From contig CAJQPL010000064.1 of NCBI GenBank assembly GCA_905480215.1, positions 1-46,963 on the forward strand: a DNA stretch of 46,963 bases, written 5' to 3'. The notes beneath the pieces are model-generated. The model did no database searches and was not told the DNA's origin. It saw only the letters and a program-made list of their open reading frames with translations. Below are positions 27,625 to 46,539 of the stretch, piece after piece. A program made the translations under genes and the position numbers. This stretch comes from an uncultured Woeseiaceae bacterium. Lineage in GTDB: Bacteria > Pseudomonadota > Gammaproteobacteria > Steroidobacterales > Woeseiaceae. The number at the start of each line of letters is the position of its first letter. The stretch's first letter is position 1.

Positions 27625-28827
27625 ATGAACGTAAATCTTCGACATTTCTTCGCTCTGGTCGACATCGCCGACGCCGGTCGCCTCAGCAGCGCTGCCGAAC
27701 GAGCCTCTGTATCGCAGTCCGCAATGACTCAGGCCTTGCGTAAGTTAGAAGAGTTGGCCGGTGAGCCGCTGTTCAATCGGGTTGGGTTCGGCGTCGCAGA
27801 GACGCCCGCAGGCGAGGCACTGATCTGGCGCGCACGACGAGCGATCGACTTACTGCGAAGTACTGAACGTGAGCTTCGCGGTGAGCGGCCTCGCGATGCC
27901 GGCAGCCTGCGCAGGCAAATTACAGCTAGTCAATTTCGCGCCGTGGTAGCGATTGTGGAAACCGGCGGCTACAGCACCGCCGCTCGCCGGCTCGGACTGG
28001 CACAGCCTACTATTCATCGAGCTGCGAAAGATCTGGAGGCGCTGGTTGGCGTTGATTTGTTTCCACGAACTCCCCGTGGCGTGGAACCCAGTGACGTCGC
28101 AAAGTCGTTGGCGCGGTGCGCAAACCTCGTGTTCGCCGAGGTTCGACAAGGATTCGAAGAGGTGTGGCAGTTGCAAGGTCGCTCCGACAGTCTGATCGCG
28201 ATCGGAAGCTTACCGTTGGTGCGTTCCGAATTCCTACCGACGGCCATAACCCGTTTGCTGTCTCTGTATCCGGACGCACGCGTCAGTATTCTGGACGGGC
28301 CCTATGTCGAACAGCTACATGCATTGCGCTTTGGCGAAATCGACTGGCTGATCGGTGCACTCCGCGAACCGTCCCCAGCATCGGACGTCGTCCAGGAACC
28401 GTTATTCGTTCAACCGCTTGCCGTCGTCGTCCGGCCTGGCCATCCGTTACTGAGCAAGCCCTCACCCAAAATCGACGATTTGGCCAAGCTCGAGTGGATC
28501 GCCCCACGTCCGCTGACGCCGGCGCGGCGTTTTTTTGATGAGTTTTTCGAAAACAACGGCGCGAAAACGCCAAACAGAATCATCGAATGCAGTTCACTGG
28601 TCACGACGCGTGGTCTCTTGCGTCAAAGTGATCGTGCTGCATTGCTATCACCGATGCAGGTACGTGAAGACGTTAGCGCGGGTGAACTGGTCGTACTGGT
28701 CGATGCGATTCCGCAATCGAGCAGAACAATCGGCATGACAACACGAGACAACTGGAAACCTACGATGGTTCAGTCTGCCTTTTCAAATATTGTCAGGGGG
28801 ATCGCTAGCGGTCTCGTTGCCAGGTAA
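27625..28827 (+). CDS. LysR-family regulator with two predicted HTH domains
   Basis: This protein is about 400 aa, a hundred longer than normal LysR regulators. A first LysR-type HTH covers about residues 1-62 (RHFFALVDIADAGRLSSAAE, RASVSQSAMTQALRKLEELA). After a short linker a second one follows at about 98-158 (FRAVVAIVETGGYSTAARRL, GLAQPTIHRAAKDLEALVGV). The usual effector domain then runs to the end, with LSLYPDARVSILDGPYVEQL near its start. It diverges from ligK across a palindromic site and probably activates the lig operon in response to protocatechuate or a pathway intermediate, as LigR does. Its last 23 bases overlap the convergent DUF2218 gene. Confidence 0.85.
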   Translation: MNVNLRHFFALVDIADAGRLSSAAERASVSQSAMTQALRKLEELAGEPLFNRVGFGVAETPAGEALIWRARRAIDLLRSTERELRGERPRDAGSLRRQITASQFRAVVAIVETGGYSTAARRLGLAQPTIHRAAKDLEALVGVDLFPRTPRGVEPSDVAKSLARCANLVFAEVRQGFEEVWQLQGRSDSLIAIGSLPLVRSEFLPTAITRLLSLYPDARVSILDGPYVEQLHALRFGEIDWLIGALREPSPASDVVQEPLFVQPLAVVVRPGHPLLSKPSPKIDDLAKLEWIAPRPLTPARRFFDEFFENNGAKTPNRIIECSSLVTTRGLLRQSDRAALLSPMQVREDVSAGELVVLVDAIPQSSRTIGMTTRDNWKPTMVQSAFSNIVRGIASGLVAR

Positions 28828-29089
28828 CGATTGGGTCGTCTTTGTTCGCCATTCGCACCAGGTGATCGCCGACGACGCGTTCTGCTCGATCGACCTCGCT
28901 GGCATCAGTCAATTCGACGCGGATATGCATAAATTCGTCGTCGCATTGAATTTCGCAGATTCCAAATGGAAACTCGATTTTTCCCTGGCTACCGTCAGCG
29001 ACCGTCGGAATTTTGTGTGCAAAATGCTTGCACAAGCGTTTTGTATAGGCGACCCCATGCGGCGTCGCCACTTTAGCTGTCGTGATCAT
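28805..29089 (-). CDS. DUF2218 family protein
   Basis: This small cytoplasmic protein (94 aa) matches DUF2218: ITTAKVATPHGVAYTKRLCK, HFAHKIPTVADGSQGKIEFP, FGICEIQCDDEFMHIRVELT and VVGDHLVRMANKDDPIVTWQ. Family members are often found beside siderophore or TonB-receptor genes, but no enzymatic role is proven. It begins directly after the stop of the alkylsulfatase-like gene and is the last gene of the long operon led by the first TonB-dependent receptor. It converges with, and slightly overlaps, the regulator gene. Confidence 0.78.
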   Translation of the reverse strand: MITTAKVATPHGVAYTKRLCKHFAHKIPTVADGSQGKIEFPFGICEIQCDDEFMHIRVELTDASEVDRAERVVGDHLVRMANKDDPIVTWQRDR

Positions 29090-30457
29090 TCAGAACCACA
29101 CCTCACTAAGTTGACCCGATTCAAGCTCGTTGGCATAGCTCAAGTAATAGTTGCGGTTCGGCGCATTGTACTCGCGCGCAGCCAAACCTCGTAGCGCCTT
29201 GATCTTAATCTCGCGCGCCAGCTGTCGATCACCATCGTCAAGCCATTTCAGGTGATCCGCCAATTCGAGGGCCCATTGGAAGTCGCCGTCCTTTAATGCC
29301 CGCCGCATCTTTTTCGATAGTCGTTTCGTTCCACCGGCAAGTCGCGCCATCTGTTGCGCTTCGGCTTTGGGATGCAGCGGATTCAAGGTGGCGGGATTAC
29401 CGTCGTACCAACCCAACAATCCTGCATAGATCGCCCGAACCGCATGAGGAACAGTGCCGTAGAATTCGATCAGGTATGGCTTGTCTTTTAGGTGGGCCGG
29501 CAGCTCCACTTCGTGCGAAATTAAATCCGGGCTCTTCCCAAGATTGATGCCGCTGACTGTTTGCTCATAAACGCTACGAATGGCTTCGCTGTAGTCACTC
29601 AGCGCACCGGTGGCCGCCACACTACCAATGATGGGCATTGTGTGACCGGGCACGACATGTTCCGGTTCCAGATCAGCCATCGCGGCAACACTATCGGACC
29701 AGTTCAGTACGTTTCGATATGGCGTTCCGCGAATCGCGTACAAATTTGGAAACGCCTGATAAAAATTGTCACCGGCAAACAAGACCTTTTCTTCAGGCAG
29801 CCAAACGAACAATGCGTCATCCGTCTCTCCAGGCCCCGCGTGCAATTCGATATGGACGCCAGCAATTGTAGCTATTAGACCGTCGCTGGTGACACCAACT
29901 GTCGGCGGTAAGTAACCGTTACCTCCATCGTGGTCGATTGTATTGGCCGGTGCCAAACCTCGATTTGTTACCTCGTGCGGCGGCAGCTTGCGTCCAAATT
30001 GGCGCACACCTCGCAGCGCCATGATAGGCGCTAGCGCTCTGCCTGCACCGGTCGCTGTGCCAAACTTTTTCATTGCGTAGATTGCTGGGTTGTCGCTGCC
30101 TGCGAATACACTCGCGCCACCAGTATGGTCACCGTGGCTATGTGTATAAATTATCGCCTTAACGGGCTTGTCACTGTACTGCCGCAATGCATTGAAGGCG
30201 TTACTAGCACTTGTCGGTCCTCTTAACGTATCGACAATGATCACGCCATCAGTGCCAACAATCATCGAAGTGTTCGCACCATGAAACCCGACAGCAGTAA
30301 ACACGTTTTCAGAAACCTGAACGACCTGTTGTTCGAATAGCTGGTTTTGATCGTTCAGCATTTGCAGCGCGAGTTTCGGATCTACTTGCGTGTCAGCGTT
30401 CGAATTGTTGGCGATCAACGCCAGCGCAATTAACAACCTGCTTGCACTTACATTCAC
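29090..30457 (-). CDS. Exported metallo-beta-lactamase-fold alkylsulfatase-like hydrolase
   Basis: The 455-aa product starts at GTG 30457, seven bases after AGGAG, and opens with a signal peptide (VNVSASRLLIALALIANNSN). The di-zinc motif THSHGDHTGGASVF is followed by the alkylsulfatase dimerisation region (YGTVPHAVRAIYAGLLGWYD, GNPATLNPLHPKAEAQQMAR). SdsA/BDS1-type enzymes hydrolyse primary alkyl sulfates. The usual SCP2-like C-terminal domain that helps bind hydrophobic substrate is missing, since the family is normally about 650 aa. The product may therefore cut a less greasy sulfate ester. It sits in the first receptor operon and would act in the periplasm. Confidence 0.78.
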   Translation of the reverse strand: MNVSASRLLIALALIANNSNADTQVDPKLALQMLNDQNQLFEQQVVQVSENVFTAVGFHGANTSMIVGTDGVIIVDTLRGPTSASNAFNALRQYSDKPVKAIIYTHSHGDHTGGASVFAGSDNPAIYAMKKFGTATGAGRALAPIMALRGVRQFGRKLPPHEVTNRGLAPANTIDHDGGNGYLPPTVGVTSDGLIATIAGVHIELHAGPGETDDALFVWLPEEKVLFAGDNFYQAFPNLYAIRGTPYRNVLNWSDSVAAMADLEPEHVVPGHTMPIIGSVAATGALSDYSEAIRSVYEQTVSGINLGKSPDLISHEVELPAHLKDKPYLIEFYGTVPHAVRAIYAGLLGWYDGNPATLNPLHPKAEAQQMARLAGGTKRLSKKMRRALKDGDFQWALELADHLKWLDDGDRQLAREIKIKALRGLAAREYNAPNRNYYLSYANELESGQLSEVWF

Positions 30458-30468
30458 AAACTCACTCC

Positions 30469-30714
30469 TCAATCCGTAGACGTTCCGCGAAGCAATGCGT
30501 CGACGGAAGCGTAGGTGGATACGGCATAGGGTACGCAGTAGGTCATCGGAATTTTCCAAAACAAGTCGCGGCCTGCTTCACCACTCAAGAGCAGATCACC
30601 CTGATTAATACTCACGAGGATCGTACCGACAATGAGCGACACTTTTAGACTGCGCTTGACGACCTCTTCGCTGCACGCCGTAGCTATCCAGCTACGATTC
30701 GAATCATTCGTCAC
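30469..30714 (-). CDS. NrtS-like small membrane protein
   Basis: This is an 81-aa protein with two hydrophobic segments: SEEVVKRSLKVSLIVGTILV followed by SINQGDLLLSG, and KIPMTYCVPYAVSTYASVDA. The pattern V-KRSLKV-L-VGT-L--INQGD and LTY-VPY-VSTY-S is that of NrtS proteins, described as nitrate/nitrite carriers in some bacteria. The start is uncertain; I use GTG at 30714, though a TTG at 30738 is in frame and would increase overlap with the MFS gene. Why a presumed nitrate/nitrite transporter sits in an aromatic-compound operon is unclear. Confidence 0.55.
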   Translation of the reverse strand: MTNDSNRSWIATACSEEVVKRSLKVSLIVGTILVSINQGDLLLSGEAGRDLFWKIPMTYCVPYAVSTYASVDALLRGTSTD

Positions 30715-31921
30715 TTGCAGGGTATTTCCCAAGAGCAAGAAATAGCAGGATCGAGATTATCAGTAGCGCCACCGAAATCGACAGCATGACGGTGTACCCC
30801 TGGTATGCCTGGGCCACCGCGCCGAATAGCGGCGGCGCGATGCCCGCACCGACCGTAAAGAACGCGATGATGGCGCCGAAGATAGCGGGATAATGCGCTG
30901 CGCCGAAATACTTGCTGGTTAAGAACGCCAGTAAATCCAGTTCAGCGCCTGCGGCAAGGCCGATCATGACGCCGACTATCAGGCCTGTCGCAAACGTCAA
31001 TTCGGCATTCACCAGCATTAGCAATGCGAGCGTCGGAAGGATAAAGAAACAGGCTGCAACACCTGGCGCCCAAAAGCGATCAACCAGGACGCCCACCAAC
31101 ACTCGACCGATTACAACGGTAAGTCCCATAACAGCCGCTATTTGTGCGATCGAGCTGCGCTCAAATCCCTGCTCGGTCATTATTCGTGGGAAATTGGATA
31201 ACAACCCGGCTACTACGACTACGGTTATGAACAGCACAGCACCAAGAATCCAAAAGCGACCGGTTCGCATAGCTTGGGCACGCGTCATGCCCCAGTTCGC
31301 GGCTTTGTTGGTCTTTTCCTGACCAGCATCCGATGGCGTCGCCTCCGCTTTTTCTTTGAACAGGGCGAGAACGATCGGCACCGAGATAATAAGCGCGCCA
31401 ATGCCGATGCCGCGATAGGCTGTTCGCCAACCGTGATTGGAAATCAGAAATTCGACAATAGGTGGCAATAAGAATGCGCCCAGGCCCGTTCCTGCCATCG
31501 TAATACCGATCGCCTTACCGCGGTGCTTTTGAAACCAGACATTGAGAACGCTCGTCCAGACAATCGGTAACGAGCCGGCCCCCATGATCGCCAGCAACGC
31601 CCAACTCAGGTACCAAAGCGTTAATGATCCAGTATTGAATGAAAGAAATACGTAGGCTAGCGAGTGGCCGACTAATCCGATAACACCAACTCGACGAAGC
31701 CCGACCTTTTCTGCGAAAGATCCAACCAGTGGCCCGGTCAGAAGTCCTAAACACATCAAGACGGTATAGCTTAAAAAGAATTGCGACGGGGCCCATCCAA
31801 ACTCACTGGTAACCGGTCCAACGAAAAAACCCTGCGAATAGTTCGTCAGAGTAAAGATTCCACACATTGTGCCGATAGTCGCGGCAAACAGCGGCTTCCA
31901 ACCGTTACTGAACTCATTCAT
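30704..31921 (-). CDS. MFS transporter of the OFA/monocarboxylate type
   Basis: This 405-aa carrier has about twelve hydrophobic helices and is MFS-like: GIFTLTNYSQGFFVGPVTSE in the first helix-loop, the loop motif GSFAEKVGLRRVGVIGLVG, and VWFQKHRGKAIGITMAGTGL. This arrangement fits organic-anion carriers of the oxalate/formate (OFA) type. It probably brings an aromatic acid or a breakdown product across the inner membrane after periplasmic processing by the adjacent sulfatase-like enzymes. The next gene, NrtS-like, overlaps its end, and an exported metallo-hydrolase gene lies 28 bases upstream. Confidence 0.8.
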   Translation of the reverse strand: MNEFSNGWKPLFAATIGTMCGIFTLTNYSQGFFVGPVTSEFGWAPSQFFLSYTVLMCLGLLTGPLVGSFAEKVGLRRVGVIGLVGHSLAYVFLSFNTGSLTLWYLSWALLAIMGAGSLPIVWTSVLNVWFQKHRGKAIGITMAGTGLGAFLLPPIVEFLISNHGWRTAYRGIGIGALIISVPIVLALFKEKAEATPSDAGQEKTNKAANWGMTRAQAMRTGRFWILGAVLFITVVVVAGLLSNFPRIMTEQGFERSSIAQIAAVMGLTVVIGRVLVGVLVDRFWAPGVAACFFILPTLALLMLVNAELTFATGLIVGVMIGLAAGAELDLLAFLTSKYFGAAHYPAIFGAIIAFFTVGAGIAPPLFGAVAQAYQGYTVMLSISVALLIISILLFLALGKYPASDE

Positions 31922-31949
31922 TTTTCTACCCCTTTGTTGTCGGGCTATT

Positions 31950-32924
31950 CTAGTCGGACGACGGTTTGATGACGCGAATTTCTTCGCCTATTTCGATGAC
32001 CATGAGGTCCTCACCCACCTCCAACGCGCCATCCCACGTCGTTCTAGTTTGCTCAATCAGCTCGGGAATCCCGGCGGGATCGTTATTCAGGTGTGTAAAG
32101 ACGCCTAAACGTGTTTGAGTCTCCGTAAAGACTCTTCCAACATCGGGCGGCAGTGTGTGCAATGAAACGATGTCGTCGGCAACGTTTTTTGGAAACATTT
32201 CGCGAACAATCCGCACAATTGCTGGCGAAAATACTTCGTGAATAATTACATCAGCGCCGATGCTGTGCCGCACCAGGTTTTCTGAGTAAGTAGTGTCGCC
32301 CGATATGACAACGCTGCGTTCCCCAACATCAATTCGATAGCCGAACGCGGGTTTAATGTCAGCGTGATCGACATCGAACGAAGTAACTGTAGCGTCTCCG
32401 ATCGTTACGCTCTTGCCGTTTTCCATCAGTACCCATTCGTAATCCAAAGCTTCTCGGGTCGCGATCTGGTGCTGCCTGTCGGCACGAAAAACGACATCTT
32501 GCTCGAAAGCCAGGCGAAGATGGTGCATGAACGTGTCGGCCGCTGCCGAGCCGTAGACATGCAAGTTTTCCGCACGGCCCTGAGTCCAGCCATTCATGTA
32601 AAGATCGGCGATCCCAACCGTGTGATCAGAATGCATATGCGTGAGAAACAGGTGACTTGCGCCGCGAAGGTAATTGGGCCCCAGGTTCCACAAGCGATGT
32701 GCGCAGCCTCTGCCACAATCAAATAGCAACTTTGTGTCGCCAGCTTCCACTAATACACTGGGACCTAATTGACGTGGATTTGGCGTCGGCAGACCGGTGC
32801 CAAGTAACGTCACGCGGATATCGTATTGCGCGACAGATTCCTCGTTCTTACTGGCGTCGGAACATCCGATCAGGCAGAAGTTGATTACGATTGCGGCAAT
32901 GACTGCTGTCAGTCGATCAATCAC
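31950..32924 (-). CDS. Metallo-beta-lactamase-fold lipoprotein hydrolase
   Basis: The 324-aa protein has a lipoprotein signal (AIVINFCLIGC, lipobox cysteine at residue 22) and so would be anchored to a membrane facing the periplasm. The di-metal motif HMHSDHTVGIADLYM and later DVDHADIKPAFGYRI and SGDTTY segments resemble RNase Z-like and AtsA-like arylsulfatases of the MBL fold. A role as a periplasmic ester or sulfate hydrolase is the best guess. It lies ten bases after the aldehyde dehydrogenase gene and is in the same operon as a second MBL-fold protein. Confidence 0.75.
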   Translation of the reverse strand: MIDRLTAVIAAIVINFCLIGCSDASKNEESVAQYDIRVTLLGTGLPTPNPRQLGPSVLVEAGDTKLLFDCGRGCAHRLWNLGPNYLRGASHLFLTHMHSDHTVGIADLYMNGWTQGRAENLHVYGSAAADTFMHHLRLAFEQDVVFRADRQHQIATREALDYEWVLMENGKSVTIGDATVTSFDVDHADIKPAFGYRIDVGERSVVISGDTTYSENLVRHSIGADVIIHEVFSPAIVRIVREMFPKNVADDIVSLHTLPPDVGRVFTETQTRLGVFTHLNNDPAGIPELIEQTRTTWDGALEVGEDLMVIEIGEEIRVIKPSSD

Positions 32925-32934
32925 GTCCGTACCA

Positions 32935-34362
32935 TTACATCTGAATTGTTACCCATTTCCACTCCGTCATCGCTTCGATATCTTCGTCGGTACCCTCGCG
33001 GCCAAAACCACTGTCTTTAACTCCGCCAAAAGGGACCGTTGGTTCATCGTGCAAGATTGCACCGTTTACATGAACCATTCCAGACTCAACCTCATGCACG
33101 TAGCGCATCGCGTCCTTAAGATTCTGTGTGTAGATGCCCGCACTCAAACCAAAGTCCGAGTCGTTTGAGTACGTCAATGCCTCGTCGAGTGTGTCAAAAG
33201 GGTAGATCGATGTGACAGGTCCGAAGGTCTCTTGGTAATAGACGTCCATTTCGGGCGTCACGCCGGTCAAGACTGTTGGTTGGCATCGATTGCCTTCCCA
33301 ATCCCCACCGGTAACGATTGTTGCACCCTTCTTTCTAGCGTCCTCAATGTGGCCCTTAACGCGCGCGCGCTGCCGCTCGCTTATTATCGGCCCGATGACG
33401 GTGCTCTCATCACGCAAATCGCCCATACCGAGGTTTCCGGCCACGGCAGCAAACTTTTTTACAAAGCCATCGAATATTTCGCGCTGTACGTAGATGCGAC
33501 TAGCACCCATACAGACCTGACCTTGGTACATAAATATACTTTGGATGGCGCCTGGCATCGCTGCTGAGAGGTCTGCGTCAGCCATGATGACGAGTGGACT
33601 CTTGCCACCGAGTTCCAGCGTAGCTGGCTTGCCGAGTTGGCCGCACAACTCCTGGATGTGTTTTCCAACACGACAGGAGCCTGTGAACGTGACCATTTTC
33701 ACCAGTGGGTGTGACGTCAACGCATCGCCAATCTCATAGCCGTCGCCTGACACGACATTGAATACGCCATCCGGAAGACCCGCTTCTTTGTAGAGTTCTG
33801 CGAGCCGGTACGCCAATACCGGAGCCTCTTCCGATGGCATCATGACGACGGTATTGCCAAGCGCGATCGGGTTACAACTCAGCCGCGATCCTTTAATGAG
33901 CGGAACATTGAATGGCGTGATCGCGGCAATCACGCCAATCGGCGAACGAATGCTCATGCTGAATTTGCCGGGTGCATCAGACGGAATCGTTTTGCCTGTC
34001 GCGCTTCGAGCCATCGATGCGGATGAGCGGAAAAACGTGATTGCCTTTTCGACTTCAAATCCGGCTTTCTTAATCGGTGAACCAATTTCGTCGACGAGGA
34101 TATTGATGAAATCCTGCCGATCTCGTTCGAGGATTTCGGCTGCCTTACACATGATACGCTCGCGCTCTTTCGGCAAAGTATGTCGAAAGCTCTGAAACGC
34201 CTGATGAGCAGTCTCTACCGCCCGATTGATGTCAGTTACTGATCCTGCTGCTGCTTCCGCGAGCTTGGTATCTTCCAATGGATTGCAAACTGCAAAATAG
34301 CTGCCCGTTTCCGGCGGAACAGACTGACCGCCAATCCAATGATCATATCTTTCCTGTTGCAT
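32935..34362 (-). CDS. Aldehyde dehydrogenase (aromatic-aldehyde type)
   Basis: This NAD(P)-dependent dehydrogenase (475 aa) has the standard active site: N152 in ITPFNVPL, E250 in LELGGKSP and C284 in GQVCMG. The cofactor-binding lysine usually found in VVLKPSE is replaced by methionine here (VVMMPSEEAP), which may shift cofactor preference. Sequence style resembles benzaldehyde/vanillin dehydrogenases. In this operon it would oxidise an aromatic or side-chain aldehyde to the acid that feeds into protocatechuate. The next gene upstream is a short-chain dehydrogenase, 49 bases away. Confidence 0.83.
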   Translation of the reverse strand: MQQERYDHWIGGQSVPPETGSYFAVCNPLEDTKLAEAAAGSVTDINRAVETAHQAFQSFRHTLPKERERIMCKAAEILERDRQDFINILVDEIGSPIKKAGFEVEKAITFFRSSASMARSATGKTIPSDAPGKFSMSIRSPIGVIAAITPFNVPLIKGSRLSCNPIALGNTVVMMPSEEAPVLAYRLAELYKEAGLPDGVFNVVSGDGYEIGDALTSHPLVKMVTFTGSCRVGKHIQELCGQLGKPATLELGGKSPLVIMADADLSAAMPGAIQSIFMYQGQVCMGASRIYVQREIFDGFVKKFAAVAGNLGMGDLRDESTVIGPIISERQRARVKGHIEDARKKGATIVTGGDWEGNRCQPTVLTGVTPEMDVYYQETFGPVTSIYPFDTLDEALTYSNDSDFGLSAGIYTQNLKDAMRYVHEVESGMVHVNGAILHDEPTVPFGGVKDSGFGREGTDEDIEAMTEWKWVTIQM

Positions 34363-34411: not shown

Positions 34412-35167
34412 CTATTGATTTAGCGCACCGCCATCAACGTTAATACTCTGTCCGGTGATGAAGTCACTATCTTCAGTAGCCAGGAACAATACGGTACCGA
34501 TCAAGTCTTCCGGCAACATGCCGCGTTTTATGGCACGCATAGCAAGTGTTGGTGCTTTTATCGCGCTGAGCTGGTCGTGCTCGACGACGCCCTTGCTCTC
34601 AGTAAGCCCGACAATGATCGTATTCATATGAATATTGTCTTCAGCAAGCTCACGGCTAATCGCCCGAGTCTGCGCAATTATGGCGCCCTTGGATGACACG
34701 TAATGTGGAAACATCGGCGCCCCGCGAAGTGCTGTTCCAGACGAGATATTGATTATCTTACCACGCCCGTTCTTCTTCATACTGGGCAAGACGGCTTTCG
34801 TAGCCTGGAACGGCCCGCGTACATTCACGCGCATAACCGCATCCCATTCGTCGTTGGAAATTTTTGTGAATGGCTTAAGTGTCAGATCCGCAAATATTGA
34901 CGCGTTATTTATGAGCACTTCGATCGGACCAAAAGACGATTCAGCCGCATCGACCATCGACTGCAGAGACTCATCGGAAGTGACGTCCGTATTAAGCCCG
35001 ATCGCCTCACCTCCAGCAGTCTTTATCGCTTCGACAGCCTCGTCAGTATCTTGAATATCCGTAACGACAACTTTCGCCCCCTCCGCTGCCAAGGATTCCG
35101 CATAGGTGCGACCAAGGCCTTGGGCCGCCCCGGTTACTACCACTACTTTTCCGTTCATTCGTGCCAT
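34412..35167 (-). CDS. Short-chain dehydrogenase/reductase (possible C-alpha dehydrogenase)
   Basis: This SDR (251 aa) has the cofactor motif TGAAQGLGRTYAESLAAEGA, the NNAS motif (INNASIFADLTLK), the catalytic serine in NISSGTALRG and YVSSK with the Tyr-Lys pair. The ATG at 35167 (MARMNGKVVVVTG) was chosen; it is five bases after AGGA, while the in-frame TTG at 35179 overlaps the GST stop. In sphingomonad lignin pathways SDRs (LigD, LigL, LigN, LigO) oxidise the C-alpha alcohol of beta-aryl ethers before the GST-type etherases act. Location next to two GST genes makes that role plausible here, but the sequence alone does not prove it. Confidence 0.8.
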   Translation of the reverse strand: MARMNGKVVVVTGAAQGLGRTYAESLAAEGAKVVVTDIQDTDEAVEAIKTAGGEAIGLNTDVTSDESLQSMVDAAESSFGPIEVLINNASIFADLTLKPFTKISNDEWDAVMRVNVRGPFQATKAVLPSMKKNGRGKIINISSGTALRGAPMFPHYVSSKGAIIAQTRAISRELAEDNIHMNTIIVGLTESKGVVEHDQLSAIKAPTLAMRAIKRGMLPEDLIGTVLFLATEDSDFITGQSINVDGGALNQ

Positions 35168-35175
35168 TGGATTCC

Positions 35176-35985
35176 TCAATTAATGCCGATTATTCGTTTA
35201 ACATCCGGCCAACTTTTCGAGCCGAACGTCATAAGATCGTTGGTCAAACCCTCAGGACACCAATCCAGAATTGCGGACTGGAATGTCGGTACTTCCTGGA
35301 TTCGCGCCCACCATTCGGCTAAGTACGGTAGCCGGTCTTCCCACCAGCCACTCATTCCCATCATCGCAACGCGATTGACATAGGGAGTCAACGAGACATC
35401 AGCTAAACCGAACTCATCGCCAACAAGCCATTTGGATTTCTGCAACTCCTGATCCATTTGCTGCAAATACTTGTCGTACAGCTGAATTTTTTCCTCAACA
35501 CCTGGCGCTTCAAACCCATACTTGACTATTTGCTTCTTGAAGCCTGCCCAGTCCGTGGTCACTGAGTGACCCGGCGTACTCGCCAGAAAATCCTCAAGCT
35601 CTTGTTCGCTTAAGTTCTTCCGCACAATATGCCGATGAGCGCAAGCAAACGTTAAGGTGCCGCAAGCCGGATGCAGCAGCTCATCAAGCGCCTTTGTCCA
35701 GTATCGTGTTTTCACGTATTCGAGTGGATTTTTCGGAGTCAACTGAATCTCGGGAAAGGCGAGATCGAGATACTCCATGATGACCGTCGATTCGTTAACG
35801 ATATTGCCGTCATGTACCAAGCTCGGCACTACGGATTTTGGATTGATCTTTATATATTCAGGATCAAACTGATCGCCTTTAAGAATATCAATATAGTGCG
35901 TTTCAAAATCCAGATTCTTGATAATCATCGCCCATCTGACTTTGGCGGCGCATACGGAAGACCCGTGATGGTATAGCTCTAGCAT
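35176..35985 (-). CDS. Glutathione transferase, LigF/beta-etherase-like candidate
   Basis: This 269-aa protein has a thioredoxin-like N-terminal domain (ELYHHGSSVCAAKVRWAMII, then INPKSVVPSLVHDGNIVNES with the cis-proline and glutathione-binding ES) and a helical C-terminal domain (KTRYWTKALDELLHPACGTL, WLVGDEFGLADVSLTPYVNR). It resembles LigF-type beta-etherases in the ESTVIMEYLD segment and overall length, which is longer than a typical 210-aa GST. Such enzymes attack the beta-aryl ether bond of lignin-derived dimers with glutathione. It follows another GST with an 11-base gap. Etherase activity is an inference. Confidence 0.78.
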   Translation of the reverse strand: MLELYHHGSSVCAAKVRWAMIIKNLDFETHYIDILKGDQFDPEYIKINPKSVVPSLVHDGNIVNESTVIMEYLDLAFPEIQLTPKNPLEYVKTRYWTKALDELLHPACGTLTFACAHRHIVRKNLSEQELEDFLASTPGHSVTTDWAGFKKQIVKYGFEAPGVEEKIQLYDKYLQQMDQELQKSKWLVGDEFGLADVSLTPYVNRVAMMGMSGWWEDRLPYLAEWWARIQEVPTFQSAILDWCPEGLTNDLMTFGSKSWPDVKRIIGIN

Positions 35986-39306: not shown

Positions 39307-40407
39307 TTACTGTTGGCTGGCTGCTTGTGAATGCAACTCGAGCAAGTGCGGAATTGATTCTGGATCCCGGCGCCCCAATCCGCATTCCGTCGCAACGCCA
39401 AAACCAGAGATCGACGCGGAGGCAGCTGCAGTTCGCTTCAAAGCCCCTTCAAGGCCATCGGTGTAGTGGAGCAAGCCAAGAAATAAACGGGTTTCGTCTT
39501 TTAGTTTTAGATCGCTCAGAGGTTGAAAATACTTTTTATCATCACGATCGCGCGGCACGGGCATATGAATCCATTGTATTGAACGAGTAACACCCTCTGA
39601 AATCCTGTTTGCGAGGTCCGTCATAAGTCTCGTATCAAGTGGCTCGAAAAAGTGTTTGTGCCCCATATCGCCGTAGCAGAGATGATATCCAACCTCGGCA
39701 GGCTCTGGCACCGCATCTGCCAACGAACACAGTTCTTCGGGGATCGCGGTATGCCACGACGCAACGTTTTCATCATCCTGCCGATTTTCCAGCATGATGA
39801 TTTCTATGCAAACGTCCCATTGAATCGCCAGCTCTTCGACAGGGATCTCTTGAGTGAGAATCTGTAGTTCATTAAGCATCGCTTTTTTGTATTGCTTGTA
39901 AAGAACAGCTGATTCGCTATGGCCCTTCGGTGAGAAAAAAGTATTAATGGGTGCTAAAGGCGTAGGCAGTGAGACCTGAAAACGGCAATTCGCATGAATC
40001 TCACCGCCCTCTTTTAGCGCCCTGAATTTCTTATAGGACTCAATTGCGGAGTCCGCGTATCCCAGGCGTGGAAATTTCAGACTACCAACATTGATATTTT
40101 CTTTAACCTGCAACTGCCGCTGGTGCATATCGAAGCCGCCCTCGGAATTTGCGATAAACGATTCAATTTCTTCGGTGAGTTTCTGACGCGTTACTTTTCC
40201 ACCGACAACCTCGAATTCCTGCATTTTCGACATCAAGATGTATTGGTACATGATCCATTCCAGTCGATTGCCGGTCTCACCATCAGGAATTCTTGGAATG
40301 CGATCGCCCAAAATTGAACTGGCTGTGCGAAATACGTCCTCGGCGTTTTCCAGCGGTACACTGCCCACCAGATGTACCTGGCGTGTGTTTTCGGTCGAGT
40401 TATTCAT
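39307..40407 (-). CDS. MetE-like zinc methyltransferase-fold protein
   Basis: This 366-aa cytoplasmic protein resembles the catalytic half of cobalamin-independent methionine synthase (MetE, UROD/MetE-like barrel). The start HLVGSVPLENAEDVFRTASS and IPDGETGNRLEWI fit the family. The zinc ligands are recognisable: H242 and C244 in YHLCYGD, corresponding to the H-x-C motif of MetE, and C342 in TECGLGRRDP. It lacks the long N-terminal half of MetE and is not beside methionine genes. It is the last gene of an operon with a TonB receptor and a sulfatase, so a methyl-transfer role on methoxylated aromatics is an attractive guess. The true substrate is unknown. Confidence 0.72.
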   Translation of the reverse strand: MNNSTENTRQVHLVGSVPLENAEDVFRTASSILGDRIPRIPDGETGNRLEWIMYQYILMSKMQEFEVVGGKVTRQKLTEEIESFIANSEGGFDMHQRQLQVKENINVGSLKFPRLGYADSAIESYKKFRALKEGGEIHANCRFQVSLPTPLAPINTFFSPKGHSESAVLYKQYKKAMLNELQILTQEIPVEELAIQWDVCIEIIMLENRQDDENVASWHTAIPEELCSLADAVPEPAEVGYHLCYGDMGHKHFFEPLDTRLMTDLANRISEGVTRSIQWIHMPVPRDRDDKKYFQPLSDLKLKDETRLFLGLLHYTDGLEGALKRTAAASASISGFGVATECGLGRRDPESIPHLLELHSQAASQQ

Positions 40408-40427: not shown

Positions 40428-42137
40428 TTAAGGAAGTATCAACGGCCCATCACTGATGATGACGTTATTCTCCGCGGCATACGCGTTCCACGCTGCCAGC
40501 ATTTGCGCCAATTTCTCTGGCTCTTCAAGAGAGAGATCCCGTGTTTCTCCAGGGTCGACACTCAAGTCATAAAGCTGCCACCGATCTTCGCCGAATGGAG
40601 CTTCCGCGTAGAGGATCTTCCAGTCGCCCACACGCACACCTCGCCGCTTGAACAGCTCCCACCCGAACACTTCCGTCTCGCTATGAATTGCGGACTGCAG
40701 ACCAGCAAGCTGCGTCAGAAAGGACTTCCCGGTTTGCGGCAATATCTTGCGACCGTCGTAGCTTCCGTCGGGATAGTGGGTGCCCGCAATATCCAGAAGA
40801 GTGGGAGCGACGTCTCGTACCGTAAGCAGCTCATGACTGACCGATCCTCGATGTTCAACGCCAGGACCGCTGACGATAAAGGGCACACGAATACCGCCCT
40901 CTGCCATGTGGCGCTTGAAGAGATAAAACGGTGCACTACCCGCCGAAGCCCACCCTGGCCCGTAAAACATCATCGACCCATCGCGCCCGAGGTTGTCGAG
41001 GCTATTGTCGGCGGCGTTGAAGCGTTGCATCAACGGTTCGCTCTGCCAACCGTAAAAACCAGCCGCCCCATTGTCGGACATGAATATGATTAGTGTATTT
41101 TCAAATTGGCCTGAGTCTTGTAAATGGGCAAGCAACCGGCCGATATTGTCGTCCATGTTGTCGACGGCGCCCGCGTACACTTCCATGCGTCGCGCATGAG
41201 TGCGCTGCTCCTCATTAGTCAGTTGATCCCACGGCGTCACCGTCGGTGCACGGTGCGCGGGCGATACAGTTTCGCTGATGATGCCAAGGCGTTGCAGTTC
41301 GCGCAGACGGCGCTGGCGAATCACATCGTAACCTTCATCGTATCGTCCCTGGTACAAGTTTATGTGCGATTCGGGTGCCTGCACCGGGATGTGTGGAGCC
41401 GCGAACGCGAGGTACGCGAAGAAAGGTGCGTCGTTTTCTATTCCTGTTTCAAGATACTCAATGAGCTTGTCGGTATAGAAATTACTGGAAAAGAAATCAT
41501 CGGCAACCGGCATACCGGTGCGATCCACACCGTCCTCGAAATAGAAGCCTTTCGCGCCGGGACGCACGCCATCCAAATTGAAATGACCTCCCGGCGGCGA
41601 GCCCTTTGTTTGCACGAAATAACGATCGAAGCCTCGGGCCGCCGGCAGGGTCTTGGGTGTTTCGCCCAAGTGCCATTTGCCGGTCATGTACGTTTCGTAT
41701 CCTGAATCCTGCAATAACTTCGCGACCGATACGGTGCGATGATTGAGGTACCCCTCGTAACCCGGTTGGCCTTCCTGATTGGGTCCCAAGGCCAAAAGCA
41801 TTGCCCCCAGTCCCGCGAGGTGATTGTCGACTCCGGAAAACAGCATTGCGCGTGTCGGAGAACAGTTGGAATGCGCGTAGAAGCTGGTATAGCGAATCCC
41901 GGTCTCGGCGATGCTATCGATAGCCGGTGTGTCGATCTCGCTGCCATACGCACCCAACTCTGAGTAGCCGAGATCATCGGCAACGATCAGTAGAATATTG
42001 GGACGTGGCTGCGTTGCTGGTGGATCGCCATACCGATTCGACAGTGGCGTTTCCGAGGGCGAACAGGCAAAAAGACATAACGCCGTGAGTTGCAGGAAAA
42101 ACAATCTCACGGCGTACTTCAGAACGATAGCCACCAT
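40428..42137 (-). CDS. Formylglycine-dependent arylsulfatase, lipoprotein
   Basis: The 569-aa S1-type sulfatase starts at 42137 behind GGAAAAG, eight bases after the receptor stop, and has a lipobox (ALCLFAC, cysteine 25). Metal ligands D54 and D55 are in IVADDLGYSELGAYG, and C92 in the CSPTR motif is the residue converted to formylglycine. Further family blocks are YMTGKWHLGE, LIIFMSDNGAAGFYGW and GVRVGDWKILY. It would release sulfate from aryl or carbohydrate sulfates at the cell envelope. The maturation enzyme that makes formylglycine is not in this window. The link with a TonB receptor indicates uptake of a sulfated substrate. Confidence 0.88.
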   Translation of the reverse strand: MVAIVLKYAVRLFFLQLTALCLFACSPSETPLSNRYGDPPATQPRPNILLIVADDLGYSELGAYGSEIDTPAIDSIAETGIRYTSFYAHSNCSPTRAMLFSGVDNHLAGLGAMLLALGPNQEGQPGYEGYLNHRTVSVAKLLQDSGYETYMTGKWHLGETPKTLPAARGFDRYFVQTKGSPPGGHFNLDGVRPGAKGFYFEDGVDRTGMPVADDFFSSNFYTDKLIEYLETGIENDAPFFAYLAFAAPHIPVQAPESHINLYQGRYDEGYDVIRQRRLRELQRLGIISETVSPAHRAPTVTPWDQLTNEEQRTHARRMEVYAGAVDNMDDNIGRLLAHLQDSGQFENTLIIFMSDNGAAGFYGWQSEPLMQRFNAADNSLDNLGRDGSMMFYGPGWASAGSAPFYLFKRHMAEGGIRVPFIVSGPGVEHRGSVSHELLTVRDVAPTLLDIAGTHYPDGSYDGRKILPQTGKSFLTQLAGLQSAIHSETEVFGWELFKRRGVRVGDWKILYAEAPFGEDRWQLYDLSVDPGETRDLSLEEPEKLAQMLAAWNAYAAENNVIISDGPLILP

Positions 42138-42144
42138 CTTTTCC

Positions 42145-44559
42145 TTAGAAGTTGTAGCGACCTTGTAGAGCGAACTGACGTCCAGGCGCGGTGAAGAAGA
42201 AGCTCGCTGCCGACGGTGTGCGGGTCGGATCGATAGTACGCGGCTCTCTCGTATCATTAGCGAAGTTACCGGTTATCTCATCGTTAAGATTGAGACCAAC
42301 CAATGCAATGCGCCATCGGCCGTCCTCTCCTTCAACAAACAAACTAGCATCAACTTTGCCGTATGCAGGTTGGACATCCGTTACCGGATGGTTTTTGGAT
42401 CCGATGAATTGGTCGTCCCGCCAGGAATAGGCCGCACGCCAGCCCCAGTTGAGACCACTCGACAACGGGTATTCGCCATCAACCGCCAGGTTGTATTGCG
42501 TCTCTGGCGAGTACTGCACGTCGGTGCCAGACAAATCCTGAACACCACCAACGCATCCCTCCCCAGCTGCTGCCTGGCCTGGATAACACGACGCACCTTC
42601 ATAATTGTCATAAGTTGCATCGAGGAGTGCCAGTGCCGCGGTGACCCGATGGTTCTCATTGAGCAGCCAGATAATATCGGCCTCCAGCCCCTTCGAAGTG
42701 ACGGCAGCTGCATTGACGATGTTTTGCGACGTAAGTTGAGGATCGAATGCGGAAACCTGCAGATCTTCTATCTCGGTTTGGAAGATTGCCCAGTTCAGTT
42801 GCAACCGGCGGTCGAGCAGCGTGTGCTTGCCGCCGATCTCGTAACTTGTAGCGCTTTCGGCATCGAACTCAACCTGATCCGCAGTCAATGCACCTCCGCC
42901 TACCGGCCACAGTTGATATCCGCCACCCTTGAAGCCTTCCGCATAGCTCAAATAATACATGTGCTCGTCAGCCGGCTTCCAGGTCAGTACGGCATTTGGC
43001 GAAAAGTCATCTTCGTTTCGTGAAAACGACCCGGAATTCGAACCTGCCAAAAGTGGTCCAAAGCAGACCACCGGTCGGCCATTAATTGAACCACCCAGAC
43101 TCGGGCAATTGCCTCCACCCATAAAGTCAGTTGTCGGAATAGGCGTACCAGATCCTTGCCTGATGCCGACAAGATCTGAGAGAAACTTCCGACCAACAGC
43201 GTCCTTGTCTTCCTCTGTATAACGACCGCCAACGCCGATAGTCCATTCCTCGTTGAGATGAAAATCAACCTGTGCGAACACCGAGATCGTGGAGGAATCC
43301 TGGACTGATTCGTAGTTTCGCTGTAATCCCGTGTAGGTAGGCAACGATGCATCGGCACAGCTGCTGCCCCGGCCACCACAGAATTGAATATTCTGATTAG
43401 ACGTCACTTCGTTTTCATTGAAATACACGCCACCAATGAAATCGACGTTGTCACTAAGTGACCCAAGGACACGAAGTTCCTGGGAAATCTGATTAAAATC
43501 ATCCTCAATGTTGACCAACTGTGCATCGGAATTGAGATTGAAATCGGCAGTGGAGAAGTCGTCACCTTCATACTCGGTAAAGTTGGTGAGAGACGTCAGA
43601 GTCCAGTTGTCATTTAGCTCCCAGTTGAGCGTCAAGCCCGCCAGAGAATAGGTCGTCGCTGTGAACTCATCAAATGGTCCACCGGCCCATGAACTATCCT
43701 GCCATTTGACGTTGTTGGTAACGCAATCATCGATGGGTGGCGCGTCGATACAGTTACCGTTTAGTTCCCGGGCGCGACCACCGCGATCAATGTCGCCGGC
43801 CTGCAGCAGCAAAGTGGCGTCCACGGTATCCGACATATCCCATTGAAAAACGCCGCGTACGGTCCAGCTATCCTTTGCACCACCGTCCTCGCTGCCAGTA
43901 ATACCATCAACCATATAGCCGTCTTTGTCCTCCACGCGCCCCGAAAATCTGGCGCGGAAATTGTCACTGAATGGCACGTCGACAGCACCCTCCACGGAAA
44001 AACCCTCCGCTGCCTCAAAGTCATAGGTGGTGGCAACATATCCGCCGACTTCATTTCCTGGCTTACGAGAGACGATGTTGATAGCGCCCGCCGTATTGTT
44101 TTTGCCGATCAGTGTGTTTTGCGGACCTTTAAGAATCTCAATGCGTTCCAGGTCCAGGAACATGGTTTGACCAAAACGACTACGGCCAAAATAGAAGCCA
44201 TCGACGTTAAAACCTACGGCCTGTTCGAAGCCGACGTTGGTGCCGTTGGTGCTGATACCGCGCACCGCGAAACGATCTGAAGACGTGAATGCTTCGCCGA
44301 AACTTAAGTTTGGCAACTGCTCTGCCAGTCCGCTGATGTCAGACAGGTTGCTCTCTTGAATCATGTCGCCTGTCATCGCTGTGATAGCTATTGGGACATC
44401 ATTCAGCCCCTCCTCACGTTTACGCGCTGTAACCGTCACCTCGTCGAGGACTGCCCGCGATCCGGCTTCTTCCTGCGAATTGGCGGACACAGGTATCACC
44501 AATAAAAGTGAAATGGCTATTGTGCAAATGACGAAGTCTGAAACTCTTTGATGGATCAC
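42145..44559 (-). CDS. TonB-dependent outer-membrane receptor 2
   Basis: This 804-aa receptor has an N-terminal signal segment (ICTIAISLLLVIPVSANSQE), a TonB box (VLDEVTVTARKREEG), a plug with LRGISTNGTN-like and ILKGPQNTLIGKNNTAGAIN blocks and a barrel that ends in FALQGRYNF. It leads the operon with the arylsulfatase and MetE-like gene. It belongs to the same broad group as receptor 1 but the sequences differ clearly, so the ligands may differ. Control is shared: promoter elements at 44657-44716 match those of receptor 1. The LysR gene just upstream on the same strand is another possible regulator. Confidence 0.88.
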   Translation of the reverse strand: MIHQRVSDFVICTIAISLLLVIPVSANSQEEAGSRAVLDEVTVTARKREEGLNDVPIAITAMTGDMIQESNLSDISGLAEQLPNLSFGEAFTSSDRFAVRGISTNGTNVGFEQAVGFNVDGFYFGRSRFGQTMFLDLERIEILKGPQNTLIGKNNTAGAINIVSRKPGNEVGGYVATTYDFEAAEGFSVEGAVDVPFSDNFRARFSGRVEDKDGYMVDGITGSEDGGAKDSWTVRGVFQWDMSDTVDATLLLQAGDIDRGGRARELNGNCIDAPPIDDCVTNNVKWQDSSWAGGPFDEFTATTYSLAGLTLNWELNDNWTLTSLTNFTEYEGDDFSTADFNLNSDAQLVNIEDDFNQISQELRVLGSLSDNVDFIGGVYFNENEVTSNQNIQFCGGRGSSCADASLPTYTGLQRNYESVQDSSTISVFAQVDFHLNEEWTIGVGGRYTEEDKDAVGRKFLSDLVGIRQGSGTPIPTTDFMGGGNCPSLGGSINGRPVVCFGPLLAGSNSGSFSRNEDDFSPNAVLTWKPADEHMYYLSYAEGFKGGGYQLWPVGGGALTADQVEFDAESATSYEIGGKHTLLDRRLQLNWAIFQTEIEDLQVSAFDPQLTSQNIVNAAAVTSKGLEADIIWLLNENHRVTAALALLDATYDNYEGASCYPGQAAAGEGCVGGVQDLSGTDVQYSPETQYNLAVDGEYPLSSGLNWGWRAAYSWRDDQFIGSKNHPVTDVQPAYGKVDASLFVEGEDGRWRIALVGLNLNDEITGNFANDTREPRTIDPTRTPSAASFFFTAPGRQFALQGRYNF

Positions 44560-44656: not shown

Positions 44657-44716
44657 ACTATAGTCGACTGCGATTCGGCTGATAATCGCCAAAAAAGGAT
44701 TCTATTGGTTCGCGAA
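44657..44716 (-). promoter_or_regulatory. Conserved promoter/operator of receptor operon 2
   Basis: On the minus strand: TTCGCGAA (44709-44716), 23 bases, -35 TTATCA (44680-44685), 17-bp spacer, -10 TATAGT (44657-44662), 98 bases before the receptor ATG. It is nearly identical to the region at 39184-39243 in elements and spacing, over roughly 70-80 bases, while the flanks differ. Sequence 44560-44656 holds only the leader. Confidence 0.72.
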
Positions 44717-44748
44717 ACACGAACGATTAGGCACCGAGCCTCTAATTT

Positions 44749-45714
44749 CTAGCTGCCAGGCTTGCCGGATCGGCCCAATAAGCTCGCGTATTCCGGGTGT
44801 TTCACAAGCAAGCGCTGCTCCCACGGCGGGAAGTTCCCGTACTTGTTGCGTAAGAAATTCATGAAAATACGAACCTTCATTGGCACGAAGGATGATTTTC
44901 GATAGTAGGCACATATCGCCGCACTGCTAACTGCATAGTTAGTCAGAACGGGAACCAACTGCCCGGAAATCAGCTCATTCTCAATGAAAAAGACCGGCAT
45001 CATTGCCATACTTTTGTGCTGCATGATTTCTGCGTGCAGCATATAGATTGTATTCGTTCTCACAACAGGCTTGATGATTACTGTTTCAGGCTTTCCTTCG
45101 CGTTCAAAACGGAGCGTGCAATCAGGTTCAACATGATCATTGTGTGCCAAACAATGATTTTTCAAATCTTCGAGTTGCTCAGGGCGTCCATAATGCTCAA
45201 GGTATTCAGGTGTTGCTACGATCACGCGACGCGCCGGAAAAAGCTCGGTTTTTTGCAGCGTACCCGGAGGAATTGAGGTCGGTTGCACACTGACATCGTA
45301 ACCTTCCTGAACCGGGTCGCAGAATCGATCGTGTTGTCGTAGCTCGATCTGCAATTCCGGATGTTGCGTACGAAACTCACACAGGTCCTTTGCAAGGAAA
45401 GCCGCAATAACGGACGAATTGCAACTAACACGGAACGTGCCGCTTAATGCCCACTCAGTCGAATGGACAGCTGCCTTTGCTTGTTCAATCTCTGCGAGCA
45501 CATGAACGCATCGCTCGTAATATTCCGTTCCGGCGTCAGTGACCGTCAGGCGTCGCGTCGAGCGTTGCAATAGCTGTAATTCGAGGTGCTCCTCAAGCTG
45601 ATTGACGCGTTTGGCGATCACAGATTTGACCGTGTCCGTTTGCCGGGCCGCCTCAGCGAAACTTCCCGCTTCGACGACTTTGACAAAGGTCCTCATGCAT
45701 TCCAGTTCATTCAT
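44749..45714 (-). CDS. LysR-family transcriptional regulator
   Basis: This 321-aa regulator has a normal layout: an N-terminal winged HTH (MRTFVKVVEAGSFAEAARQT, VKSVIAKRVNQLEEHLELQL) and a two-lobed effector domain (GTFRVSCNSSVIAAF onward). It resembles the CrgA/AaeR-like branch. It lies directly upstream of the second receptor operon, separated by the conserved promoter, so it may sense a related aromatic or regulate both receptor operons. It has only one HTH, unlike the regulator beside ligK. Confidence 0.83.
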   Translation of the reverse strand: MNELECMRTFVKVVEAGSFAEAARQTDTVKSVIAKRVNQLEEHLELQLLQRSTRRLTVTDAGTEYYERCVHVLAEIEQAKAAVHSTEWALSGTFRVSCNSSVIAAFLAKDLCEFRTQHPELQIELRQHDRFCDPVQEGYDVSVQPTSIPPGTLQKTELFPARRVIVATPEYLEHYGRPEQLEDLKNHCLAHNDHVEPDCTLRFEREGKPETVIIKPVVRTNTIYMLHAEIMQHKSMAMMPVFFIENELISGQLVPVLTNYAVSSAAICAYYRKSSFVPMKVRIFMNFLRNKYGNFPPWEQRLLVKHPEYASLLGRSGKPGS

Positions 45715-45852
45715 TGATCGTATTTTTCGAACTATTAAGGTCAGATTTTCAATATTAACACCAAATCTTAGAACAATGAAAGCATCTGATTGCAGCTAGA
45801 GGTTGTCGAAACTATGCTCACATGAAGCCGTCGTCACCTGGGATAGGCGAAG

Positions 45853-46539
45853 TTAGTCGAATTCCGTCCTCCAGGTCATCGCTTCCGGAAATTCAAGGCC
45901 CGCTTTTTCCTTAGCCGCCATTTGCCGCTTGAGCGCTGCTTGAAAACTGGGTCGCTCCCGCACCCTGCGGATATGTGATCGAATAGCCGGATAGTCGTTC
46001 ATAGGCAGCAAGTCCGTACTGGCCGCGGTCGTAATACACCAGTTGATATACACATCCACAATCGACCAGGTATCTCCGTACCACCAACGATCGCCGGCGA
46101 CTCGCTCCTCAACAATATTCAGCATGTGAGTTGTCTCTTCGATCCCCTTTTCCTGCACCCCCGACACATCCCCACCGGTATAACGCATGGGCATACGAAC
46201 TTGGCGAATTGCCGTGTGCATTGTGGCCGTGCACCAGACCAGATCTGAATGAATGGTCGCCCGCTCCAGCGGCGTTTTCGCTTCCGGGAATAGAATGTTT
46301 GGTCTGACCGAATCGATGTAGAGAAGAATTGAAACGTTCTCTATGATTACTTCCCCATCGACGACTAGCGCCGGCACCTTTCCAAAGGGGTGAACCTTTC
46401 GATACGCCGGTTCATTTTGCTCACCGGTCATAATGTTGACTACTCGATCTTCGAATTCAAGACCAACTTCGATCATCGCATTTACAGCCACCGACGAGCA
46501 TGCACGCAACGGAAATTGATACAGGGTGTAGTTTGGCAT
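45853..46539 (-). CDS. Glutathione transferase 3 (LigG-like or detoxifying)
   Basis: This 228-aa GST has the N-terminal fold YTLYQFPLRACSSVAVNAMI and FGKVPALVVDGEVIIENVSI with the cis-proline and the glutathione-binding EN (usually ES), and a helical domain containing WWYGDTWSIVDVYINWCITT. Length is near the general GST norm, in contrast to the LigF-like pair. In beta-etherase pathways a third GST (LigG) removes glutathione from the etherase product; this gene could fill that role, but it could also be an ordinary detoxifying enzyme. AGGG precedes its ATG, and it follows an EamA-type transporter gene remnant by 15 bases. Confidence 0.75.
   Translation of the reverse strand: MPNYTLYQFPLRACSSVAVNAMIEVGLEFEDRVVNIMTGEQNEPAYRKVHPFGKVPALVVDGEVIIENVSILLYIDSVRPNILFPEAKTPLERATIHSDLVWCTATMHTAIRQVRMPMRYTGGDVSGVQEKGIEETTHMLNIVEERVAGDRWWYGDTWSIVDVYINWCITTAASTDLLPMNDYPAIRSHIRRVRERPSFQAALKRQMAAKEKAGLEFPEAMTWRTEFD

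Follow-up and report, generated by a model that had tools for sequence, protein, structure and literature searches.

A conserved gene island in a Woeseiaceae contig associates TonB receptors, a sulfatase and glutathione S-transferases with protocatechuate 4,5-cleavage genes: a candidate route for sulfated phenolics

Parts of the locus analyzed here resemble several described systems, including the protocatechuate 4,5-cleavage (lig/pmd) pathway of Sphingobium SYK-6, the LigDEFG beta-aryl-ether pathway, the arylsulfatase PAS of Pseudomonas aeruginosa, the alkylsulfatase SdsA1, and the dehalogenation systems around BbdI and BhbA/NpRdhA. The LigAB route ends as pyruvate and oxaloacetate, LigG-type lyases use a Cys, and PcpC carries a Ser-x-Cys motif. 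According to excerpts of the respective papers, bbdI, which is repeated with bbdJ on plasmid pBAM2, encodes a glutathione-dependent thiolytic dehalogenase (PMC8460812), and the BhbA cluster feeds the same ring-cleavage route by way of 4-carboxy-2-hydroxymuconate-6-semialdehyde (PMC10463259). Here, we describe a 46,963-nucleotide contig of an uncultured Woeseiaceae bacterium (GCA_905480215.1, CAJQPL010000064.1; contig C64 of a 2.17-Mb assembly, 65% complete), called the window, in which genes for TonB-dependent receptors, a formylglycine sulfatase and glutathione S-transferases (GSTs) adjoin a lig operon. Across several lineages, the receptor, the sulfatase, the GST/short-chain dehydrogenase (SDR)/aldehyde dehydrogenase (ALDH) set and the lig genes stay together, with their order rearranged. 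Judged from sequence, the region probably forms one functional catabolic island that converts a sulfated phenolic into protocatechuate.

The minus strand between positions 29090 and 46539 holds 13 genes with intact frames, in the order given by an earlier note on this DNA. They include the two runs of genes described there, with gaps of 7 to 49 bases within the runs, for the starts chosen, and 221 bases between them. The first run reads receptor 1-sulfatase-366-aa protein (gaps of 7 and 20 bases). The second reads receptor 2-GSTa-GSTb-SDR-ALDH-MBL-MFS (gaps of 10 to 49 bases), where MBL denotes a metallo-beta-lactamase-fold hydrolase and MFS a carrier of the major facilitator superfamily. At least 144 bases lie between the MFS gene and another MBL, SdsA1-like, whose frame ends at 30559. 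The lig operon (21644-27514) adjoins the island in the order ligK-U-J-I-A-B-C, with the regulator gene LysR1 divergent from it. The features are given below, with signal sequences and lipoboxes of the sulfatase and both MBLs judged by eye.

45853..46539, minus strand: GSTc, third GST, upstream of the LysR2 gene; profile match; distant from GSTa and GSTb
44749..45714, minus strand: LysR2 regulator, YafC/AaeR-like; profile match; conserved with the island
42145..44559, minus strand: TonB-dependent receptor 1; profile match
40428..42137, minus strand: formylglycine arylsulfatase, PAS-like, lipoprotein-type; CSPTR motif, profile and 1hdh match; frame open from 42257, with 42137 picked as start to suit the signal sequence
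39307..40407, minus strand: 366-aa protein of an unannotated, widespread family; without profile or PDB match
36812..39085, minus strand: TonB-dependent receptor 2; profile match
35997..36782, minus strand: GSTa, Ser-Asn-Cys motif; profile, PDB match, alignment and tree
35176..35985, minus strand: GSTb, Ser-Val-Cys motif; profile, PDB match, alignment and tree
34412..35179, minus strand: SDR oxidoreductase; profile match
32935..34362, minus strand: ALDH; profile match
31950..32924, minus strand: second MBL hydrolase, PNGM-1/GntH-like, predicted exported; profile and PDB match, lipobox LIGC by eye
30704..31921, minus strand: MFS carrier; profile match
29090..30559, minus strand: SdsA1-like MBL hydrolase, predicted exported, with alkylsulfatase dimerisation domain; profile and 2cfu match; whole open frame given, true start probably internal
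27625..28827, plus strand: LysR1, PcaQ-like (under the PcaQ model cut-off), divergent from the lig operon; profile
26831..27514, minus strand: ligK, 4-carboxy-4-hydroxy-2-oxoadipate aldolase; above curated cut-off
25760..26830, minus strand: ligU, 4-oxalomesaconate tautomerase; above curated cut-off
24728..25753, minus strand: ligJ-type amidohydrolase (4-oxalomesaconate hydratase); by position and family, with no NCBIfam match
23826..24731, minus strand: ligI-type amidohydrolase (2-pyrone-4,6-dicarboxylate hydrolase); by position and family
23437..23826, minus strand: ligA, protocatechuate 4,5-dioxygenase alpha; above curated cut-off
22595..23440, minus strand: ligB, protocatechuate 4,5-dioxygenase beta; above the cut-offs of class III extradiol dioxygenase subfamily models
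21644..22582, minus strand: ligC-type oxidoreductase (4-carboxy-2-hydroxymuconate-6-semialdehyde dehydrogenase); PF01408 and PF19858, by position and family

Gene neighbourhoods were surveyed with GSTs as the only queries (GSTb for 15 loci, GSTa for that of genome G742), which kept the sulfatase and lig genes from influencing the choice of loci. GSTb retrieved 10 loci in genome contigs, and searches of 107 family and 396 order genomes added further ones. Of 369 class genomes, two had a GSTa match at E 1e-60, namely that of the window and G742. In the family of SAR92 clade bacterium H231, 5 of 112 genomes have GSTb at E 1e-100 or better, and all five carry the island. Sixteen loci, including the window, entered the count, in which matches up to 40 kb away were taken under identity and length thresholds of our own (35% identity for the sulfatase). 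The SDR gene was present in 13 of these loci, ALDH and LysR2 in 14 each, receptor 2 in 12, and GSTa in 11. Sulfatase, ligA and ligB were each found in 10, the SdsA1-like MBL in 13, the second MBL in 7, and the MFS gene in 14, in one case (G396) 36 kb off. The subfamily of receptor 1 occurs in two loci (the window and G403, 76% identity) and another receptor, TBDR1s, in nine; counterparts of GSTc were left out of the count. More distant GST relatives (38 to 54% identity) were ruled out as island members, their neighbours being different when compared with our reference proteins, and nine such loci served as controls, in which none of the genes from SDR to MFS in this count was found at the same thresholds. 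The difference between 10 of 16 and 0 of 9 gives a Fisher p of 0.003, the kinship of the loci not being corrected for. The earlier note had named this survey beforehand as its refuting test; the receptor/GST islands stay associated with lig genes, as the ligB count indicates.

In H231 and four kin of one family (titled SAR92, Porticoccaceae or Cellvibrionales), receptor-MBL-sulfatase-MFS-ligA-ligB form one run, found in all five genomes. G742 carries on one strand the array MBL-sulfatase-haloalkane dehalogenase-GST3-receptor-GSTa-GSTb-SDR-ALDH-MFS-SIP-ligC-U-I-K-J-A-B, of which the first MBL is SdsA1-like. Open reading frames (ORFs) of the relatives came from a simple script that performs poorly on GC-rich loci, and 34 of the relatives' proteins were profile-scanned. 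The short loci G195 (4.7 kb) and G397, G400 and G403 (<15 kb) may explain part of the missing lig genes.

The best-supported enzyme of the island, by sequence, is the sulfatase. It matches P. aeruginosa arylsulfatase 1hdh over its full length (E 1.8e-146) and keeps the formylglycine site CSPTR (CxPxR) as well as other conserved blocks, as the formylglycine sulfatase proposed earlier should. PF03781, the family of the formylglycine-generating enzyme, which also holds other proteins, has matches in 14 of 14 genomes. Both MBL hydrolases of the earlier proposal, one of them alkylsulfatase-like, were likewise recovered. The SdsA1-like protein aligns with SdsA1 (2cfu) at E 6.4e-50 across the catalytic and dimerisation parts, and HxHxDH is kept in all 10 aligned proteins of this type; a C-terminal SCP-like domain was not matched in the profile search. 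For the second MBL, the nearest match is PNGM-1 (E 6.5e-20), and the MBL arylsulfatase 8gyg matches more weakly (E 2.8e-6). In G400, both MBLs lie in one 773-aa open frame (L038:7213-9534), which suggests an MBL fusion. The two TonB receptors, three GSTs, SDR, ALDH and MFS carrier are also present as claimed, by profile or solved-relative matches.

At the downstream end, ligA, B, C, I, J, K and U together make up a protocatechuate 4,5-cleavage operon, complete as described before, with C, I and J assigned by family and position. The ligC-type oxidoreductase had no NCBIfam match at E 1e-30, and the ligI-type protein scores under the cut-off of the 4-sulfomuconolactone hydrolase model. PobA scored above cut-off in only 3 of 14 carrier genomes, so that in the other carriers the product delivered to this operon should already be a catechol acid. 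Zosteric-acid-type substrates are unlikely for most carriers, given this PobA count and the lack of recognised side-chain genes in the window island. As a separate observation, LysR1 (400 aa) has two HTH_1 matches ahead of one substrate domain, and its lig-linked relatives, compared by length alone, are similar in size (403 to 431 aa).

From the gene content, gene order, unit conservation and GST motif observed here, we infer the reactions, the export, the step order and the type of substrate as follows. The TonB receptors would take a sulfated phenolic into the periplasm, where its sulfate esters would be stripped off by the PAS-type arylsulfatase, acting as an exported enzyme, together with one or both of the exported metallo-hydrolases. 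The free phenol would be carried inwards by the MFS protein, and SDR and ALDH would oxidise an alcohol or aldehyde side group to the carboxylate. The two Cys-type GSTs would then attack ring substituents with glutathione, thiolytic halogen removal being favoured over ether cleavage, and the product, already a catechol acid, would enter LigAB cleavage. The earlier note had proposed breakdown of sulfated phenolics or aryl ethers; the conserved neighbourhood speaks for one unit directed at sulfated phenolics, while the aryl-ether part is weak.

The role of the GSTs is the step on which the possible substrates diverge. It is improbable that they are LigF/LigG-like etherases and that the island degrades sulfated aryl ethers, such as lignin-like, seagrass or algal dimers. 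LigF is the best PDB match of both proteins (GSTa, E 2.1e-19; GSTb, E 1.4e-23), which bears out the earlier label LigF-like to that extent, and the identity (32% for GSTa, 31% for GSTb) is about as high as to the pBAM2 GST (29% and 35%, respectively). An SDR with two GSTs recalls LigD-LigF-LigG, lig ring-cleavage genes adjoin, and the Cys of LigG-type lyases makes a LigG-like role possible. However, the tree places LigF (support 100/98, 3 rows), GSTa (100/99, 11 rows) and GSTb (99/100, 24 rows, distant relatives included) in three separate supported clades, with deep branches that are unresolved and long, the long branches being flagged. Every row of GSTb (14), GSTa (10) and GST3 (5) keeps Ser-x-Cys, as do both pBAM2 GSTs, whereas LigF reads Gly-Ala-Asn at the motif. 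Of 120 listed GSTb homologues, 117 have Cys12 and the remaining 3 are gapped there. The NCBIfam beta-etherase model NF042997 gave 23.8 bits for GSTa and 24.4 for GSTb against a cut-off of 440, although this model, with which LigF itself was not scored, may represent another etherase type. Known O-demethylase families were absent from the 21 genes of 21644-46539, the stretch searched, one of which encodes the unannotated 366-aa protein, a conceivable exception. A parallel between the GST3-DLH pair and DesC/DesD was dropped, as DesC and DesD are described as methylesterases, DesC with an alpha/beta-hydrolase fold, in an excerpt of PMC12314914, and thus offer no GST parallel.

Because a zeta-class GST has it as well, Ser-x-Cys counts mainly as an argument against a plain LigF mechanism and less as proof of a different one. 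This shared motif leaves a slim chance of a function of the zeta/maleylpyruvate-isomerase type, in which the GSTs would carry out cis-trans isomerisation or repair of ring-cleavage products or quinones, in a pathway for plain sulfated catechols that bear neither halogen nor ether. Both proteins match the maleylacetoacetate isomerase model below its cut-off of 171 bits (GSTb, 84.7; GSTa, 81.5), and DLH and peroxiredoxin genes are linked in 5 and 7 of the 16 loci, respectively. Against this, two or three GST genes per island exceed the needs of one isomerisation, and LigAB pathways, to our knowledge, normally require no cis-trans isomerase at all.

A plasmid-borne relative may connect GSTb of the island to dehalogenation. 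The top-ranked plasmid relative of GSTb is a GST of pBAM2 (34.9% identity over 99%, 154 bits), where GST and glutathione reductase (gorA) genes stand in four tandem copies (L090:12004-22131). From these copies and the excerpt of PMC8460812, the matched gene would be bbdI. A GST on a Cupriavidus plasmid, near genes for an FAD monooxygenase and gorA, scores higher against GSTb (166 bits over 90%), the top-ranked plasmid relative of GSTa is a GST of Novosphingobium US6-1 with no role assigned, and LigF used as query also finds a pBAM2 GST (32%).

Further signs of halogen chemistry come from the relatives. A 1075-aa protein near the island of H231 matches the catabolic reductive dehalogenase NpRdhA (4ras) at E 2e-164, and a 74% homologue lies near the island of Pseudomaricurvus. 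RdhA is near GSTb in 2 of the 16 loci, at 10 kb (G399) and 14 kb (G396). The family occurs in 4 of 13 genomes; no member was found in the assembly of the window (65% complete) or in 8 of the 12 others searched. In H231, PobA (above cut-off) sits beside RdhA, and the Pseudomaricurvus contig carries an additional RdhA-PobA-ligB-ligC set, roughly 300 kb away and with no island around it, so that the RdhA route may be independent of the island. Haloalkane dehalogenases act on alkyl halides. The one inside the G742 array is above cut-off and shares 47% identity with that of the window (13812-14687; 436 bits against a cut-off of 241), which lies 21 kb from GSTb and is weak evidence for a halogenated substrate. 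Taken together, a specifically halogenated substrate can be proposed tentatively.

The most specific form of this proposal, which we consider rather unlikely, is a pathway for sulfated bromophenols of marine algae, for example from lanosol-4,7-disulfate to protocatechuate. The 4,7 form bears an aryl and a benzylic sulfate, a pair that would fit an arylsulfatase and an alkylsulfatase-like enzyme, each removing one of the two. The benzyl alcohol of lanosol would suit SDR and ALDH, which would turn it into 2,3-dibromo-4,5-dihydroxybenzoate, and the GST pair would remove both bromines with glutathione to yield protocatechuate for LigAB. The product would already be a catechol acid in carriers without PobA above cut-off, as lanosol would yield. 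The bromophenol proposal is weakened because the pBAM2 GST is not the best-scoring plasmid relative and because GSTa is slightly nearer to LigF. A literature search on lanosol, sulfatase and bacteria returned nothing relevant, only an acne-care review. An older paper, as it appears in a reference list, names a 4,5-disulfate.

Several observations weigh against the island as one catabolic unit for sulfated phenolics. Half of the ten lig-linked loci come from closely related genomes of one family, the other five being the window, G106 (of the window's family), G110, G742 and Pseudomaricurvus (G396). G110 has the GST module and lig genes with no sulfatase at threshold in 40 kb. Of the island, one locus of G210 (C51) keeps no more than GSTb and LysR2, accompanied by a different receptor and a different sulfatase (~25%), and the other (C42) has neither sulfatase nor lig genes up to the contig end. 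G078 and G065 (L104, L105), left out of the count along with weaker GST hits without flanks, have GSTa relatives (51 and 50%), a second GST and a receptor (34%) with no sulfatase or lig operon match, apart from a 23 to 24% ligC-like hit. The control G233 has a 27% sulfatase, below the 35% threshold, 6 kb from its GST, and SDR and ALDH are generic. Sulfatases of the SAR92 and Pseudomaricurvus type read CSV[TS]R instead of CxPxR in 6 of 10 aligned proteins (L064:12733-14415, L068:18151-19788, L070, L076, L077 and L079). Separate modules that merely share a location, one to scavenge sulfate, one to detoxify and one to use protocatechuate, and that travelled jointly by chance or in the form of a general genomic island, could draw on G110, G210, the apparent allele swap described below and the distant Pseudomaricurvus RdhA set, but are very unlikely in view of the five genomes with sulfatase and ligAB in a single run, the one-strand array of G742 and the empty controls.

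The single catabolic island is itself of mosaic make-up. Window GSTb is 84% identical to that of Pseudomaricurvus and 59% to that of G106, a genome with which the window shares 79% identity in GSTa, 90% in SDR and 76% in ALDH, and it resembles a swapped-in allele. That the island is both patchily distributed and a mosaic suggests transfer, and it is probably mobile. A further copy (L035) lies in a 12.4-kb contig of a metagenome-assembled genome (MAG) titled Bacteroidia, in which no ligB was found; this placement may be a binning error.

The 366-aa protein had been called MetE-like, a label that was not confirmed. It has no Pfam, NCBIfam or PDB match, and hhalign against one Meth_synt_2-type protein gave a probability of 1.4%. 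Its family is large (of 7999 proteins scored, 7375 reach E 1e-10 or better), with many invariant residues, and a plasmid search returned five records from unrelated hosts. In the neighbourhood count, the gene turned up in 1 of 16 loci, outside the conserved set, and it was ruled out as part of the island core.

Elsewhere in the window, 7588-13273 encodes consecutively a planctomycete-type PSD/DUF1592 protein, a DUF1552 protein and an ankyrin-like protein; in L100, a DUF1552 relative (37%) stands beside a 642-aa protein, near a GST relative. Positions 3849-7229 encode consecutively a GPH-type sugar symporter, a PfkB kinase and an ADP-ribosylglycohydrolase, perhaps a nucleoside or ribosyl salvage set.

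The combination was not described by title or abstract start in a full-text literature search with most subscription journals outside its coverage, in agreement with the earlier statement that no such system was known. The island brings presumed functions in uptake, desulfation, glutathione chemistry and ring opening together as a single unit, mostly in marine bacteria, with carriers titled SAR92, Porticoccaceae, Cellvibrionales, Arenicella and Pseudomaricurvus in addition to the Bacteroidia MAG. A route for sulfated, possibly brominated, algal phenolics becomes testable, and growth tests look possible with two carriers that are not titled MAGs, SAR92 clade bacterium H231 and Pseudomaricurvus alkylphenolicus KCTC 32386. 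If true, the bromophenol proposal would be the first genetic route, in the literature searched, by which one of the major organobromine compounds of algae re-enters the cycles of carbon, sulfur and bromine.

Compared with the known systems, the window sulfatase shares with PAS its CSPTR site and homology over the full length, and differs in its lipoprotein-type signal, as seen by eye, and its place in a catabolic operon. The SdsA1-like protein has the MBL core with HxHxDH and the dimerisation domain of SdsA1, without a matched C-terminal SCP-like domain. Ser-x-Cys is common to GSTb and the pBAM2 GSTs of Aminobacter MSH1, including putative BbdI; however, identity is only about 35%, the tree does not group them, the pBAM2 GSTs being on deep unresolved branches, and the window island has no glutathione reductase gene. 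Like the BhbA/NpRdhA clusters, two relatives have an RdhA protein near GSTb, together with the 4,5-cleavage route, in contrast to the window assembly and most genomes searched, where RdhA was not found. The island resembles LigDEFG in its SDR, GSTs and lig genes and in having LigF as nearest solved GST, and departs from it in the separate clades and motif of its GSTs and in the absence of a known O-demethylase family from 21644-46539. Finally, it shares with the lig/pmd pathway of Sphingobium SYK-6 LigA, B, K and U above curated cut-offs and LigC, I and J by family and position, but unlike in SYK-6, the lig genes of the window are tied to TonB receptors, sulfatases and GSTs, and five relatives carry them in the same run as the sulfatase.

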